NCBI GenBank assembly: GCA_944389865.1
Contig: CALXNX010000006.1
Coordinates: 1 to 63,372, forward strand
From: an uncultured Succinivibrionaceae bacterium
GTDB lineage: Bacteria; Pseudomonadota; Gammaproteobacteria; Enterobacterales; Succinivibrionaceae
Reading direction: 5' to 3'
DNA: 63,372 bases
The notes under the pieces are model-generated. The model was not told the origin of the DNA and searched no databases. It was given only the letters and a program-made list of their open reading frames with translations. Position 1 is the stretch's first letter; every line of letters starts with the position of its first letter. Positions 33,879-39,678 of this stretch are shown here, piece by piece. The translations under genes and the position numbers were made by a program.

Positions 33879-35183
33879 CTAGATGTACAAACTGCGCTTT
33901 AAGTAGGCGATGCAGCGGGAAATCGCATCCGACTTGCCCTGACTGCCGCCCTTGGTAATGATCTTGACCCCCTTGAACGGGCCGTCCATAAAGCTGCCGA
34001 AAGCTGCCAGCGGCAGGACTTCATCTGCCAAATCAATGCCTGAGGTTTCCATCTTGCGGCACACCTCCACAGTGATGTCGCCGCCGCTGCTGTAAATGCC
34101 TTTGAAAGCCGGCGCGGCCTCCAGGATGCGGCGGGCAATTTCACCGAAAGAGCCGTTGATAAGCGCCGTCACCTCGTCCAGAGAGCAGTGATAGCGTGCG
34201 GTATACGGGGCAAAGTTGATGCGCTTTTCAGGCTGCAGACCGTCGCCGGTGACCACCGAGACGCTGTACTGACTGTAATGCTCCAAAATGCCCTGCGTGA
34301 CGCGCGCAATTTCCGCCTCACGCCGCTCGGGGCTTTCAATCAACTCTACAGTGTTCACTTCAATGCGATTAGTCTGTTGCGACAGGAAGAACTCATCGAG
34401 CTGTACTTTAGCCAGAGGATGCACGGTACCAACCACCGCCAGGATGCGCGCCTGTTCCTGCTGCTCGTGCGGCTTGACCAGCTTGCGCGTTAAGGTCGCA
34501 GTGAAGACGCCCGGGCAGACCGCCACCACCTTAAGACCGGAGCAGATGCAGGCGTCAGCGATTAAATCCAAATCATCCTGCGAAATGCAGTCGCAGCTTA
34601 AAATACGGCTGCCGCTCTTTACCGCAGCCAGCATGGACTGAGCTAAAGCCTGCGGTCCGTCCATTAAATCCTTCAGATAGAACGAGCTTAATTGATTTTT
34701 GCTCTGCGAGCGCACCACTGCCGCCACTTCAGAGATCTTTACCGGGCTCTTGGGATCAATGGCAATATCGGTCTTATGCAGCGGAATGCCGTTGACCAGC
34801 ATATAGCCGCCGCACACTACGCGCCCTGAAGAGGGGAAGGCGGGCGCGAGGACGGCGACGTAATCATCACCCAAGCAGTCGAGCATGGCATCGATTTCAA
34901 CCCCAACGTTGCCGCGCAGGGTACTGTCAATGCGCTTGGAATACACCTTGACCTCAGGGGAGGATAAAAGCCTGGTACTGTCATAGACCCGGCGATAAGC
35001 TTCCTCAGGACTGAGCGAACGGCTGTCCGTCGGATAAATCACGCAGTCGCAGCCGCCTAAAAACTCCGGTTTAAAATTTTCGGTATTGAGCACCGTAATG
35101 GCTCGATAATTGAGCTGCTTTAACAGTACGCCGGTGGCATTGCCGCCGGTTAAATCATCTGCAATGACTGCGCATTGAGGCAT
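33879..35183 (-). CDS. dtnK: Four-carbon acid sugar kinase (DUF1537, DtnK-like)
   Basis: This kinase of D-threonate/D-erythronate is 434 residues from ATG 35183, where AGGGAGA lies 5 bases upstream. The longer frame to 35249 would add 22 residues through the operator region. The N-terminal domain has VIADDLTGGNATGVLL and RIDSTLRGNVGVEIDAML. The C-terminal nucleotide-binding domain has IYSSGGDITVEVCRKM and ITKGGSQGKSDAI. It is the first gene of dtnK-pdxA2-gntP. Known family members differ in stereo-specificity, so D-threonate versus D-erythronate is open. Confidence 0.88.
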   Translation of the reverse strand: MPQCAVIADDLTGGNATGVLLKQLNYRAITVLNTENFKPEFLGGCDCVIYPTDSRSLSPEEAYRRVYDSTRLLSSPEVKVYSKRIDSTLRGNVGVEIDAMLDCLGDDYVAVLAPAFPSSGRVVCGGYMLVNGIPLHKTDIAIDPKSPVKISEVAAVVRSQSKNQLSSFYLKDLMDGPQALAQSMLAAVKSGSRILSCDCISQDDLDLIADACICSGLKVVAVCPGVFTATLTRKLVKPHEQQEQARILAVVGTVHPLAKVQLDEFFLSQQTNRIEVNTVELIESPERREAEIARVTQGILEHYSQYSVSVVTGDGLQPEKRINFAPYTARYHCSLDEVTALINGSFGEIARRILEAAPAFKGIYSSGGDITVEVCRKMETSGIDLADEVLPLAAFGSFMDGPFKGVKIITKGGSQGKSDAISRCIAYLKRSLYI

Positions 35184-35623
35184 AGGTATCTCCCTCTGAA
35201 TAACTGTGTCTAATGCGCATACTAGATCAAATTGATCAAAATCGATCATACATTAATGCGCATTGTGAAGGTCATCACAGAAACAAAACCTGACCCGCTG
35301 ACAGCCGCCCCCTTAAAAAAGCTGATTTTCAGCAAATTAGCTGGATATAAAGCCAACAAAGCAGAGTAAAGCGGAAATTTTGCGTTAATGCGCAAATTCG
35401 CGCATTTTTTTACATTTTTACATTAGAGATGCATGAGCATGTGTGCACTGCGAAGTAACAGCCCTTAACGGCGCGGCAGCAGGCTGCTTGTCATATTTTT
35501 ATCTGCAGAAAGCAGGCCCTGCTCTAATGGCGCTTTAATCCCTGCCCAATTCCAGCAATAAAACTCTCATAACCAAGCGCTAGATCCGGCTCATAAACAC
35601 TGTGTTTATCCGTATCTACGCAA
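35184..35623. other. Non-coding region between dtnK and the transposon
   Basis: No supported ORF is present. The part next to dtnK holds the operator-like repeats described at 35211-35262 and a third TTAATGCGCA at about 35384. The rest is AT-rich and probably part of an accessory segment running to galM. Confidence 0.45.
35211..35262 (-). promoter_or_regulatory. Operator-like repeat cluster upstream of dtnK
   Basis: Two TAATGCGCAT copies (35211-35220 and 35253-35262) bracket three GATCAA/GATCAT units at 35225, 35234 and 35244. The cluster is 28 bp upstream of the dtnK start and is the best candidate binding site for the DeoR-type regulator at 30466. An FNR-like site (TTGAT-CAAA-ATCGA, 35232-35245, one mismatch from TTGAT-N4-ATCAA) overlaps it. 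Confidence 0.5.
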
Positions 35624-35630
35624 ATCAGCC
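35624..35630. repeat. Target-site duplication, left copy (ATCAGCC)
   Basis: ATCAGCC directly precedes the left inverted repeat and is repeated directly after the right one at 39551-39557. The length of 7 bp is within the 4-8 bp range known for IS21 elements. Confidence 0.88.
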
Positions 35631-35860
35631 TGTCTACCGCCAGGCAAGTGGGCTCCCGACGACAAACAAAAATCCATCCCACGACAAACATTCGGGCACC
35701 AGCTATTACACCTAAATACCGCTCTGATCTTATTTAACCCCGTTTTATAAAAATTACTCTTATCCCTCCTTTTATTGATTAATAAATCTTCCTAATTCCC
35801 TTATCGGGACTATCCTGCGTGTGCAGCAATGTCGCTGCGTTTAAATCAGGAGTTTTGACT

Positions 35861-37576
35861 ATGCGTGTTGTCACACCATCAGTCATCAGACAGCTATTTG
35901 CCCTGCTCTGTGAAGATCCTTCTAAGGGATCTCGCAAATTAGGCAAAGAGCTCGATATCGGCCATTCAACGGTTGATAAGTATAGGAACCTGGCCAGAAA
36001 TAAGTCGCTGAGCTCTGTTGATGTCAGGGCTATGACTGACGAGCAGATCATTGAGATCTTTGGACTCAATAATAAAGTTTCGATTTTCATCGTCCCAGAA
36101 TGGGATGAAATCGTACGTTATCTGCTGTCCCCACGCAAATGGGGCTGCAAGATGAACACCGAGCATAATGCCTGGCTGTTTTACTACGTTAAAAAGCACT
36201 GGCCTATGCATCTTGTAAACGAGCCTCTGCCTCCTGACTGCATGAGCGAGCGTACCTTTAATCGCCGCTATAAGGAGCATATTGACTCACTTGGGCTGGG
36301 TTTTATCAAACATCAGCCCAATGCCAACATGCAGTTCGGCCCAGGTTCAATGATTGAGATAGATACCATTGGCGATAAGTTTACCTACTACGACACCACC
36401 AATGAATGCAAAAAGAACGCCATCTTGTTCACTGCCGTATGTAAATTCTCCGGTTATATCTATGCCGAGCCCATGCCTGGCGCTGATGGTCACTGCTGGG
36501 CCCAGGCTATTATCAATGCCTTATGGTTTTTCGGAGGCCTGTTTGAGTGCTGCCGTATGGATAATGACAGTGCTATATGCCTGCACGGCAAGAAGTATGG
36601 CTCCGTCAAATATAGCCGGCTGCGTCCGACCGTGCACTGCCTGTTCCGGGATCTGCACATCCAGACAGATCTGTGCCCTAAGCAGAGCCCGGAATGGAAA
36701 GGAAGCTGTGAAAACAGCAATTTCCAGCTGGAACGTGAGCTTTTTGCAGATGCAACTAAATATAAGCTCCCTCTGCATGTAAGCAGTTTAGACGAGCTTA
36801 AGCGTCTGATAGGCTGTGAGGTTGAACGGATCAACCTCAAGCCTCGTTCCAATAGTAACCTATCCCGCAAAGCTCTGTTTGATCAATACGAAAAGCATGC
36901 TTTACAGCCATTGCCGCTGTTTAGACCAGAAGTGCGCTTTTTATCCATGGGGCAGGTAAAGCATGACGGCTATGTATGCTATCTGCACCAAAACTATTAC
37001 GCCGGCGCAGATAACATCGGCAAGAGGGTCGTAGTTGAAAACATGCATGGAAAACATCTGCGTATTCTCAAAGAAATCACTTTAGAGGAAATTGCCTTTT
37101 ATGAGATTGATCACGACAAGATGACCGTGCATTACCACAAAGCCGACAAATTCACCTCATCTAAGGAAAAGATCATGACCCGCCCTAAGGAGTGGTTTAT
37201 TACGCAGTTTAATCAGGTTTCTGCGCCACACGGGCACATCGTGACACTGATTGATGTGATGTGGTCAAAACTTGCTAGAACTAAGCCTGTTGCAACCAGG
37301 CATTGCAACTTGATCTGGTCATTGTACGAAAAAGCTCCCAACGACTGTGACGTGCTGAATGACACCTGTGAGTTTATTTTGAAAAACAAAGATTACAGCG
37401 ACTTTAAACACATCTTTATCCAGACCTACAACATCATGCTGGAGTTAAAGCAAAGAACCAAAGAGCTGGACTTATTCTCTCCGGAAGCACAGTCCGCTCA
37501 GGGTACCACCACCGCCAATGTAAGCACTGAATCCTACCTGCATGGAGCAAATTACTATGAAAAATTTGAACATTGA
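35861..37576 (+). CDS. istA: IS21-type DDE transposase (IstA)
   Basis: This 571-residue recombinase has an N-terminal helix-turn-helix (RKLGKELDIGHSTVDKYRNLA, about residues 27-47) and an RNase H-like catalytic core with D168 (MIEIDTIG), D234 (CRMDNDSAIC) and E284 (GSCENSNFQLERE). A beta-barrel-like C-terminal part and a 100-residue tail that may bind IstB follow. The start at ATG 35861 is preceded by CAGGAG; an in-frame upstream ATG at 35819 lacks a good site. Its 3' end overlaps istB. Confidence 0.9.
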   Translation: MRVVTPSVIRQLFALLCEDPSKGSRKLGKELDIGHSTVDKYRNLARNKSLSSVDVRAMTDEQIIEIFGLNNKVSIFIVPEWDEIVRYLLSPRKWGCKMNTEHNAWLFYYVKKHWPMHLVNEPLPPDCMSERTFNRRYKEHIDSLGLGFIKHQPNANMQFGPGSMIEIDTIGDKFTYYDTTNECKKNAILFTAVCKFSGYIYAEPMPGADGHCWAQAIINALWFFGGLFECCRMDNDSAICLHGKKYGSVKYSRLRPTVHCLFRDLHIQTDLCPKQSPEWKGSCENSNFQLERELFADATKYKLPLHVSSLDELKRLIGCEVERINLKPRSNSNLSRKALFDQYEKHALQPLPLFRPEVRFLSMGQVKHDGYVCYLHQNYYAGADNIGKRVVVENMHGKHLRILKEITLEEIAFYEIDHDKMTVHYHKADKFTSSKEKIMTRPKEWFITQFNQVSAPHGHIVTLIDVMWSKLARTKPVATRHCNLIWSLYEKAPNDCDVLNDTCEFILKNKDYSDFKHIFIQTYNIMLELKQRTKELDLFSPEAQSAQGTTTANVSTESYLHGANYYEKFEH

Positions 37577-38405
37577 TCCTGAAAACAATTTCAACACTGC
37601 CAGAACCTCTATCCATTCTGACGCAGAAATCCTGGAGCTGATGAACAAACTGAGAATGAGCGCTATGCGTGCAGCTTATCAAGAACAAAAAGACAGCAGT
37701 AAATTCAATAGGTTAAGTTTGGTAGACCAACTGTTTGAACTGCTGTCTGCAGAACAATTGAAAAGAGAAAATAGCGGTTATGTTAACAGGCTCAAAAAAT
37801 CAGACAGAGAAACCCAAACCTCTGCAGCTCAGTTTATTGAGCGAGCCTCCAACTATAGTTTAACGCATCAACAGGCAGATTATCTGCTTAGCGGCAAGTG
37901 GTTTGGTGAGCAAACTCTGGTTATTACAGGAGCCAGTGGCACCGGCAAGACCAGCTGTTGTAGCGCCATTATTGAAGCGACTTGCCGCGGCGGTAAGCGG
38001 GCGCTAAACCTGCGTTACCCGATGCTGGTGCTAGAGATTTGCGACATCATGACCAGGCCAACCGATTTCAAAAATTATATCAAACACTTATGCCACTACG
38101 ATTTGATAGTCATAGATGATTTTTGCATCACCAGGCAGCTGCGTATAAATGAGCCAGAGGCCATTAAGGAACTTTTGGATCGCTGTTTGCAGAGTTCCTG
38201 CGGGGTTATTATTTCCTCGCAAGTAAATTCCTCCGGCTGGCATAAGCATTTCGGCGGTGACGCTATAGCAGAGGCCAGAGTAGAGCGCATCATCACCAAG
38301 GACAAATATTTCGCCCTTACCCTGACCGGTGATTCTATGCGTGCCGGCAAGGCAGCAGATATTCCTGATGACAAGCAGGGCGGTATGGGAGCGAAGAATG
38401 AATAA
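37557..38405 (+). CDS. istB: IS21-type AAA+ helper ATPase (IstB)
   Basis: The 282 residues begin with a helical region (about 1-110) and continue into an AAA+ domain with Walker A GASGTGKTS (about 125-133) and Walker B DLIVIDDFCI (about 181-190). IstB-like proteins assemble on target DNA and activate the transposase. The ATG at 37557 has GGAG 9 bases upstream and lies inside istA, so translation is coupled. An ATG five codons earlier is possible. The end overlaps the next gene by 8 bp. Confidence 0.9.
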   Translation: MKNLNIDPENNFNTARTSIHSDAEILELMNKLRMSAMRAAYQEQKDSSKFNRLSLVDQLFELLSAEQLKRENSGYVNRLKKSDRETQTSAAQFIERASNYSLTHQQADYLLSGKWFGEQTLVITGASGTGKTSCCSAIIEATCRGGKRALNLRYPMLVLEICDIMTRPTDFKNYIKHLCHYDLIVIDDFCITRQLRINEPEAIKELLDRCLQSSCGVIISSQVNSSGWHKHFGGDAIAEARVERIITKDKYFALTLTGDSMRAGKAADIPDDKQGGMGAKNE

Positions 38406-39390
38406 TCAGCAGGATCTCAAAGAGCAAAATCAGATCCCAGAACTGCCCCAAAAGTCACAAAGTGTAAGCAAGTGTAATGAATTACACCAAGGAGCCGGGG
38501 CTGTAGCAAGTGTAGAAAGTGTAACAAGTGTAACTATTACACCTTACACCTGTTACACTTTGCCCCAGCCTGCGGAGAAAGGACAGTCAGGTACAACAGA
38601 TCCTGGAATGGCTCATGGACAAAATCCCCAGCCTCACAGCGAGGATGCCACACATACTGCAGCCGCCAGCGCCAGCAAGCGGGTGTGGCAGGATATTGAC
38701 AAGTTTCGGGAAGTTTATGCCCAGCTGCGCTCAGTTAACGGAGATGTACCGCCGACTGTGACCGCACTGCGAGCAATCATGCAGCATGGCTCATATTCGA
38801 CCATAAGCAAATACAAGCTACAGCTTGATAAAGAGTATGGAAGCAGCAAGCGGCCTAAAAACGCCGCTGAGGACATCAGGGATCGAGGCATCACCAATAT
38901 GGTAAAGATGCTGTCTGCTCATATGATTGATTACAAAATCTCTGAATATGAACATAAAATTGATGAACTAAAGGAAAATTTAGTAACGGTGACGGAAGAA
39001 CGCAATCGCGATCTGGCCGACCCAAGTAACCGATGCGATGAACTAACAAAGAAAATAACAGAGCTAAGCATACAACTTAATGAAAAATCGCAACAAGTTT
39101 TGTCATTAAGCGATAAAAACAGCTCTTTGGAGAATGCGCTGGCAGAAGCGGATTCTGAACGAAAACAGCAAATGGAGGATCTAAAAAAGTACGCATTATT
39201 CAATTCCATGCTCAGGCTTTTTGAGAAAGACAATTTTAAGCTGGAGATATTTATGAGTAGAGTAAAGAAACTTTTGGAGGAGCAAGCTCCGGCGAAAGGT
39301 AAAGGGTCAGCTGAACAGAAGTCACATGCTGGGGATAAAACAGGCACGGAGGAAGAAAAATCCCAAACACGGGCAAAAATAAGGCAGTAA
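38398..39390 (+). CDS. KfrA-like DNA-binding coiled-coil protein, third gene of the transposon
   Basis: The 330 residues can be divided into: a low-complexity N-terminus (1-90) encoded partly by the GTGTAA repeats; a KfrA N-terminal-type DNA-binding region (about 94-150: VWQDIDKFREVYAQLRSVNG, then PPTVTALRAIMQHGSYSTIS); a long coiled coil (about 180-275, EYEHKIDELKENL to ADSERKQQMEDLKKY); and a charged tail. KfrA proteins are plasmid DNA-binding factors that autoregulate and form filaments. The ATG lies in the istB stop (ATGAATAA) with GGGAG upstream, so it is coupled to istB. It may act in target choice, end synapsis or autoregulation. No experiment supports any of these. Confidence 0.72.
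   Translation: MNNQQDLKEQNQIPELPQKSQSVSKCNELHQGAGAVASVESVTSVTITPYTCYTLPQPAEKGQSGTTDPGMAHGQNPQPHSEDATHTAAASASKRVWQDIDKFREVYAQLRSVNGDVPPTVTALRAIMQHGSYSTISKYKLQLDKEYGSSKRPKNAAEDIRDRGITNMVKMLSAHMIDYKISEYEHKIDELKENLVTVTEERNRDLADPSNRCDELTKKITELSIQLNEKSQQVLSLSDKNSSLENALAEADSERKQQMEDLKKYALFNSMLRLFEKDNFKLEIFMSRVKKLLEEQAPAKGKGSAEQKSHAGDKTGTEEEKSQTRAKIRQ
38462..38558. repeat. Cluster of nine GTGTAA/TTACAC hexamers inside the KfrA-like gene
   Basis: GTGTAA occurs at 38462, 38472, 38519 and 38528, with GTGTAG at 38510. TTACAC occurs at 38482, 38537, 38544 and 38553. Two pairs form tight inverted repeats (38472-38487 and 38528-38542). The same hexamer is found near the transposon ends at 35706, 39404, 39415 and 39486. 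The repeats are coding in this gene and explain its odd Ser/Val/Thr-rich N-terminus. Confidence 0.8.
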
Positions 39391-39626
39391 AGATTACTGA
39401 AAAGTGTAATTAATGTGTAAGCGCTATAGATTTTATATGCAGCCTATGGCGCTTTTAAATTGAAAAAATGCCCGAATAGTTGTCAGTGTAATGAAAATAC
39501 GGGGTGCCCGAATAGTTGGCGCGACCCGCCCGAATCCCTGGCGGTAGACAATCAGCCAGACGGCATGATAAAGCTGATGGTTTAACAGGCGCGAACAGAA
39601 AGCAACAAAGCGCTGAAGATAAGAAG

Positions 39627-39678
39627 TGTGAGTGACCTACTCCCCACCTTGAAGAAGGTGGGGAGTAGGTCACTTACG
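39627..39678. repeat. Large palindrome (20-bp perfect arms, 4-base loop)
   Basis: Arms 39631-39650 and 39655-39674 are perfectly complementary around GAAG, and four more pairs (one G-T) extend the stem to 39627-39678. The core CCCCACCTT...AAGGTGGGG followed by AGTAGGTCAC resembles the IS605-type hairpin plus GTAG-T-AC at the left edge of the window. It may be a solo IS end or a palindromic mini-element. It marks the exact 3' break of the methyltransferase remnant. Confidence 0.75.

Follow-up and report, generated by a model that had tools for sequence, protein, structure and literature searches.

A KfrA-like third gene and associated repeat arrays in IS21-type elements of the Succinivibrionaceae

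Organization of the element

The 63,372-nucleotide stretch of an uncultured Succinivibrionaceae genome that was analysed here (contig CALXNX010000006.1; the window) contains a complete IS21-family element with three genes on the forward strand (35631..39550). It is termed W in the following, with kfr for its KfrA-like third gene, L-numbers for loci and G-numbers for genomes. The left terminal inverted repeat, TGTCTACCGCCAGG (35631..35644, forward strand), is identical at 14/14 positions to the right one (39537..39550, reverse strand), and the element is flanked by the 7-bp target duplication ATCAGCC (35624..35630 and 39551..39557). Both features had been named in a preliminary description of this DNA, which called the insertion complete and recent; the ends and the duplication bear out its completeness, while for its recency the intact repeats and open reading frames are the only sign. 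Inside the ends lie two subterminal repeats on the left, CCGACGACAAACA and CCCACGACAAACA, 22 bp apart (35656..35690, forward strand), and three on the right, GCCCGAAT... (39470..39543, forward strand), which by analogy with the terminal repeats of IS21 are likely IstA sites.

The first gene, istA (ATG at 35861, 35861..37576, forward strand), encodes a DDE transposase of 571 aa. It matches the NCBIfam IS21 transposase model NF033546 (E 1.6e-26; 93.5 bits, below the curated cut-off of 160) and Pfam rve (E 6e-6, likewise below cut-off), and its residues D168, D234 and E284, invariant in an alignment of nine sequences, probably form the catalytic triad. The second gene, istB (37542..38405, forward strand; a second ATG at 37557), encodes an AAA+ ATPase of 287 aa matching Pfam IstB_IS21 (PF01695; E 6e-20; 72.2 bits, above the cut-off of 24.1). 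With both IstA and IstB scoring under the curated NCBIfam scores, the pair is IS21-type but diverged. The third gene (38398..39390, forward strand) encodes 330 aa and is assigned as KfrA-like from a sub-threshold KfrA_N match, the family alignment and an AlphaFold model. The three reading frames overlap like an operon. The ATG of kfr lies 5 nt ahead of the istB stop codon, giving an overlap of 8 nt, and not inside the stop codon as initially described.

Like members of the IS21 family such as IS21 and IS5376, W combines an IstA-type transposase, an IstB ATPase encoded directly downstream in an overlapping operon, TG...CA ends, several subterminal repeats and a short target duplication of the 4-8 bp class. 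It differs from them in the low NCBIfam scores, in an internal repeat array and in the KfrA-like gene: the family's restriction to two genes does not hold for W and its relatives, in which a third gene lies within the ends. Since W fits the family in transposase, helper and ends, we class it as an IS21 variant despite this gene. The element is single-copy in its own genome, and a second genome of the same genus has a 99% copy on a contig of 3.4 kb. In istA, 6 silent changes and 3 replacements separate the two; istB, like the part of kfr present, has 0 silent changes and 2 replacements, numbers too few to judge selection.

The third protein

The W third protein matches KfrA_N weakly (E 2.8e-4; 22.0 bits against a cut-off of 26.1), whereas related third proteins exceed the cut-off (L081, E 1.6e-10; L209, E 5.9e-9). 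In the AlphaFold model (mean pLDDT 70), residues 1-97 are disordered and are followed by helices at 94-114, 121-128 and 133-151 (pLDDT 76-88 in this head) and by a single helix at 154-296, mostly above 90. The model suggests a KfrA-like layout in which a three-helix head (94-151) precedes a long helix with a predicted coiled coil (154-296). The earlier view of a predicted DNA-binding coiled-coil protein resembling KfrA is compatible with the relatives that pass KfrA_N and with the modelled long helix; W taken alone stays under the cut-off. A PDB sequence search with a third-protein profile gave matches almost all on the coil part, and a PDB fold search with the W model gave no match at E <= 0.001 and is uninformative. 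When the W third protein was used in a protein search, one cluster was matched (98% identical; 1/1407 candidates); sequence search alone was thus unable to reveal the kfr family.

Recurrence in the Succinivibrionaceae

The preliminary description had proposed looking for a KfrA-like gene downstream of IstA-IstB homologues. IS21 elements were surveyed in part, from selected IstB loci of 56 Succinivibrionaceae genomes (L038 was added by reading and L211 by BLAST). In this census such a gene follows istB in at least 17 distinct elements from 14/56 genomes, the window's included: W, L005, L033, L034, L035, L036, L037, L038 (broken), L039, L040, L081, L087, L098, L209, L211, L213 and L214. The near copy L044, from a fifteenth genome, was left out of this count. 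With the W IstA as query, matches were obtained in 28/195 genomes (relatives, own included), and most of the closer IstA loci have, downstream of istB, coiled-coil reading frames that share a head. A profile of nine third proteins matched in 29/56 family genomes; among nine further profile-matched loci that were opened, one (L098) adjoins istAB. Many genomes are fragmented. Loci ending just past istB (L032, L007, L045, L193-L195) were set aside, and L047, L196 and L202 were scored as having no kfr on just 648, 545 and 365 nt of downstream sequence.

The third gene belongs to the moving unit. The G022 element is present in six copies, 98-99.6% identical and with the common left end TGTTGAATATTG..., all of which contain an open 184-aa kfr; both ends are readable in five, and the sixth diverges at the right. 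The five copies sit in unrelated sequences with differing 4-5 bp duplications (by eye). All three copies of the G037 element have kfr open over 169 aa and, in addition, a coiled-coil reading frame of 99 aa. The gene also lies inside mapped ends in L034 (20/24) and L039 (21/24), neither with a clear duplication, and in L040 (17/24) with a 5-bp duplication; the ends of L098 are tentative (19/24, no duplication) and those of L033, L035, L036, L037 and L209 not settled. Recurrence inside mapped ends rules out random cargo. Neither of the findings named beforehand as arguing against a role in the element was made: close relatives with identical ends but no third gene were not seen, the near copy of W and the six G022 and three G037 copies all keeping kfr, and the gene is not purely unrelated cargo elsewhere, even if KfrA-like genes are found outside IS21 as well.

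In an IstA tree of 74 rows, from which L035 was left out on account of a stop that interrupts its istA, the clade of the window (clade 1) has 11 rows with a support of 100/95. Within it kfr is open in eight rows (in L005 to its contig end), frameshifted in L038 and cut by the contig end in L032 and L007; it is present in all nine rows with downstream DNA assembled (eight open, one frameshifted). IstA identity to W within this clade goes down to 19-41%. A second clade of eight rows (100/100) has kfr in five, including the near copies L044 and L087, and the three rows without it have little assembled sequence downstream. In a third group of 20 rows (100/100), a short gene of another type, termed S, is found in 10 (100/99), three of which also have kfr; eight rows have neither, and two are unassessable. 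The three with both are L211, L213 and L214, where S lies between istB and kfr; the second gene of L211 was recognised via L040 (BLAST E 3e-19) and not by the third-protein profile. No kfr was found in 35 control loci from other families, 13 of which reach at least 500 nt past istB.

Genes of the S type (134-153 aa where complete) follow istB in L199, L201, L203, L204, L207, L210, L211, L213, L214, L216, L218, L220, L222 and L226, all of one IstA group. Their protein model comprises short helices and one long helix, a layout resembling that of the KfrA type; homology between the two types is not established despite this similarity (hhalign probability 16 and 20%). A scan of seven S-type elements (L199, L201, L203, L207, L210, L220, L222) found no array near the S gene. 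In addition, a two-gene-type IS21 control (L145/L017, one locus of G060) has a different 159-aa reading frame with a 4-nt overlap on the istB end.

Distribution beyond the family

The gammaproteobacterial sample comprised 369 genomes, the window's own included, with a third-protein match in 57 and an IstA match in 59. No third-protein match lies near IstA in the other 368 genomes (tables compared by eye); two same-contig pairs besides the window's own are > 11 kb and > 80 kb apart (by eye). As these class and phylum searches scored at most seven third-protein or three IstA candidates per genome, rare three-gene elements outside the family could escape them. Among third-protein loci, neither the 29 taken from the class search nor the 25 taken from that of the phylum have istA or istB in the fetched stretch. 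Plasmid sequences yielded 112 records with IstA relatives, with identities of at most 25.4% among the 15 matches listed, and no match to the G022 third protein; viral contigs gave no match. Across the sequences searched, the pairing of IS21 with kfr was confined to a single bacterial family. Among the titles and abstract beginnings listed in literature searches, none deals with an IS21 element that has a KfrA-like gene, a weak negative, since few subscription papers and no ISfinder entries were covered.

Several of the class and phylum third-protein loci adjoin a tyrosine recombinase gene (four tested). In L104, L105, L107 and L109, KfrA-like genes stand beside phage-integrase-type recombinases, divergently in the first three, a layout resembling that of TnpS/TnpT in Tn4651-type Tn3 elements. 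Since some other gammaproteobacterial KfrA_N proteins thus neighbour a tyrosine recombinase, and since kfr would likewise encode a DNA-binding helper of a mobile element, the third protein might be thought to assist cointegrate resolution as TnpT does beside TnpS. W has no tyrosine recombinase or other recombinase gene, however, and we give this reading hardly any credence.

Association of KfrA_N genes with transposase-ATPase pairs is not confined to IS21: in L097 (2899-6249) and L099 (1878-5442) they lie directly downstream of other such pairs (rve + AAA_22). Furthermore, five family genomes have neighbouring pairs of KfrA-like genes (L092-L096) with no istAB in the fetched stretch and with neighbours that look, by reading, like housekeeping genes.

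Co-inheritance with istA and istB

Across 15 elements, the distances of kfr correlate with those of IstB (r 0.64) and IstA (r 0.55). In partial Mantel tests the correlation with IstB given IstA is retained (r 0.40, p 2e-4) and that with IstA given IstB is not (r -0.04, p 0.65), a statistical hint that kfr divergence tracks IstB once IstA is accounted for. Among 12 elements the values are r 0.54 for IstB and r 0.38 for IstA (p 0.002), and among the eight clade-1 elements r 0.48 for IstB and r 0.53 for IstA (both p 0.014).

Repeat arrays and end sites

The first 165 nt of the W third gene contain an array (38460..38560) of eight AAGTGTAA/TTACACTT half-sites, five exact and three with one mismatch, several of them in inverted pairs. 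This part of the gene encodes residues of the disordered N-terminal stretch, which may be the reason for the repetitive look of the N-terminal parts of several third proteins. On the left, two more matches with one mismatch each lie between the end and istA (35706..35761); on the right, a further three follow the third gene ahead of the end (39402..39491), of which one is exact and the others have one mismatch each. At up to one mismatch there is none in the istA or istB body. We consider the array a likely binding array of the third protein, as judged from sequence. The palindrome GTGTAA-(0-20 bases)-TTACAC occurs nowhere in the 2.3-Mb window genome outside the array, where there are four overlapping matches. 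Sites are accordingly in the element and not in the target.

This bears on the idea, put forward in the preliminary description, that a KfrA-type factor chooses targets as TnsD/TniQ proteins do in Tn7- and Tn402-like elements. As in those elements, an extra gene stands beside the genes for a DDE transposase and an AAA+ ATPase, in W within one operon. In contrast to them, no TniQ/TnsD family match was found among the third proteins tested and there is no sign of a preferred target sequence: the five G022 copies lie in unrelated sites, and the W motif is absent from the rest of its host genome. A protein that leads the transposase to a preferred target is thus a very improbable reading.

New here is that kfr-bearing elements hold short, often inverted repeat arrays at or beside kfr, with motifs that mostly differ around a G(A)TA core. 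Read by eye in 17 elements, the motifs are AAGTGTAA in W, GTGTAACGTTACAC in L035, TGGTAGCC in L034, TGGTAAGC in L040, GGAAGCTTCC in L038, AAAAGAGCATGCTCTTTT in L081, CTGTACAG in L087, CGGTCACGTG in L098, AAAGATAACACGTTATCTTT in L209, GGTACC in L039, TGATAAT in L036, AGATAAC in L005, ATGATAC in L037, GAGTAGC in L033, GGTACAA in L211, TGGTAA/TTACCA in L213 and AAATACC in L214. Most have a GTA or GATA core, which is absent in L038, L081 and L098. Arrays occupy the first 300 nt of kfr, the istB end or the sequence just upstream of kfr, with the exception of L033, where the array is right of the gene. A separate feature, seven AGAAGAT repeats at 24-bp spacing plus one more, lies right of kfr in L209 (4041-4235) and may represent extended terminal repeats.

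A blind count over 160 bp near the start of kfr, taking the 6-mer with the most copies, gave a mean of 5.65 in the 17 kfr elements, compared with 3.12 at their own istB starts (Wilcoxon p 7e-4). For 48 kfr-less loci, some of which are copies of one another, the mean at the istB end was 3.29 (p 2.4e-6). Five or more copies were found in 12/17 kfr elements versus 5/48 controls, the 6-mer of L033 not being that of its array. Near the ends of seven elements with mapped ends, the elements' own motifs have 25 matches, versus 4.0 for permuted motifs (0/20000 permutations as high). The left/right counts are 2/3 in W, 1/7 in L081, 1/2 in L087 and 2/4 in L098, with two left sites in L034 and one right site in L039; sites are thus present in six of the seven elements, and at least two in five.

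The arrays correspond to what a KfrA-type protein would need, as KfrA autoregulators bind iterons at their own gene. According to one report (PMC7783346), KfrA of plasmid RA3 is an autoregulator. The operator at its own promoter has five 9-bp repeats (motif TGTATTGTA), which occur in both orientations and are not found elsewhere in the plasmid; the protein oligomerises and interacts with KorB and the ParA ATPase IncC. A second source describes KfrA proteins as building filaments on their operators (PMC7821693). With KfrA of RA3, R751 and RK2, the kfr proteins have in common a predicted N-terminal helical DNA-binding head (KfrA_N, above the cut-off in L081 and L209 and under it in W), a predicted long coiled coil and an iterated putative operator at the own gene, and the RA3 repeat shares the GTA core. 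Unlike plasmid KfrA genes, kfr is part of a transposition operon, the clade-1 array lies mostly inside the kfr start or istB end, and in several elements copies of the array motif are also found near the element ends.

Since autoregulation and iterated operators are known features of KfrA proteins (PMC7783346), the third protein might be an autoregulated passenger that represses only its own gene and serves stability or host interaction, as on plasmids, with no part in transposition. The arrays of L211, L213 and L214, which lie immediately upstream of the kfr start in operator position, fit this. Against it stand the retention of kfr in all assessable rows of the window clade even as IstA identity to W fell to 19-41%, the tracking of IstB by kfr divergence and the own-motif sites near the ends, and we regard a pure passenger as rather unlikely.

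Proposed role

We lean towards the view that the third protein is an autoregulated KfrA-like architectural regulator acting on the DNA of its element, which likely recognises the array in its own gene together with sites near the ends and would thereby regulate both its own synthesis and the transposition complex. By comparison with plasmid KfrA proteins, its dimers would contact the iterons with the helical head at the N-terminus, while the long coil would serve for oligomerisation, and the protein would repress kfr. Where sites also lie near the ends, array and ends could be joined in a single nucleoprotein complex, which would restrain or channel IstA and IstB. A contact with IstB is our favoured guess, since it is IstB that kfr divergence follows once IstA is allowed for.

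Several observations weigh against this regulatory reading. The motifs are not fully private, as a half-site is common to each of the pairs W/L035, L040/L213, L005/L209 and L039/L211, and in L005, L037, L087, L098, L213 and L214 the repeat counts do not exceed the highest shuffle (4 vs 4 or 3 vs 3); these two points slightly lower our confidence. End sites are not universal: L039 has one and L040 none between genes and ends, and among elements with unmapped ends none was recorded in L035 and one exact 7-mer upstream of istA in L036, with L037 left out. The motifs of L081, L087 and L098 were chosen with both flanks already seen, and that of L081 also has eight one-mismatch matches in istA/istB. 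Most clade-1 arrays lie inside coding sequence, and there is no sigma-70-like match beside the W array. Partial Mantel tests are lenient, and a kfr subfamily (L039, L040, L211, L213, L214; support 99/95) spans two distant IstA groups, which indicates more than one exchange or capture of the gene.

An extension of the regulatory reading, to which we give a low probability, is that a KfrA filament protein and its iteron array form a self-recognition system. The protein would assemble on array and ends, communicate with IstB and set end pairing and self-immunity, the codes being largely distinct between elements; sites near the ends are compatible with end pairing and immunity roles. In phage Mu, too, an internal enhancer/operator array goes together with a transposase of the DDE type and an AAA+ target protein, but the DNA-binding protein is a different one.

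Self-immunity might also be the main task of the third protein, which when bound to the array would mark the element as self and clear or block IstB, so that insertion into the element or nearby is avoided. The absence of the W palindrome elsewhere in the genome, the differing motifs of most elements and the tracking of IstB would all suit such a factor, and early work suggested an immunity function of IstB, the mechanism of IS21 self-avoidance being described as awaiting study (PMC11208146). Differing arrays are, however, also expected if repressor and operator simply co-evolve, half-sites are common to some pairs of elements, and the G022 copies, tens of kilobases apart, are too few for a test. 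We consider a dedicated immunity factor unlikely.

Surroundings of the element

W adjoins a short Eco57I-type methylase fragment, and when its flanks are joined no reading frame of at least 60 aa spans the insertion site. A long perfect hairpin, AGTGACCTACTCCCCACCTT...AAGGTGGGGAGTAGGTCACT, lies beyond the right end within the methylase fragment (39631-39674). Further upstream (35170-35410), several partly palindromic AATGCGC sites surround the start of a PF07005/PF17042 gene (33879-35249) and are likely operators of some regulator.

Significance

For IS21, a simple and well-studied transposon that uses an AAA+ helper, a branch with an additional gene for a predicted DNA-binding protein and with a site array of its own offers a natural comparison to the two-gene relatives. 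The arrays provide about 17 candidate protein-site pairs from which DNA recognition by the KfrA head may be read. They also extend KfrA-type proteins from plasmids to transposition operons.

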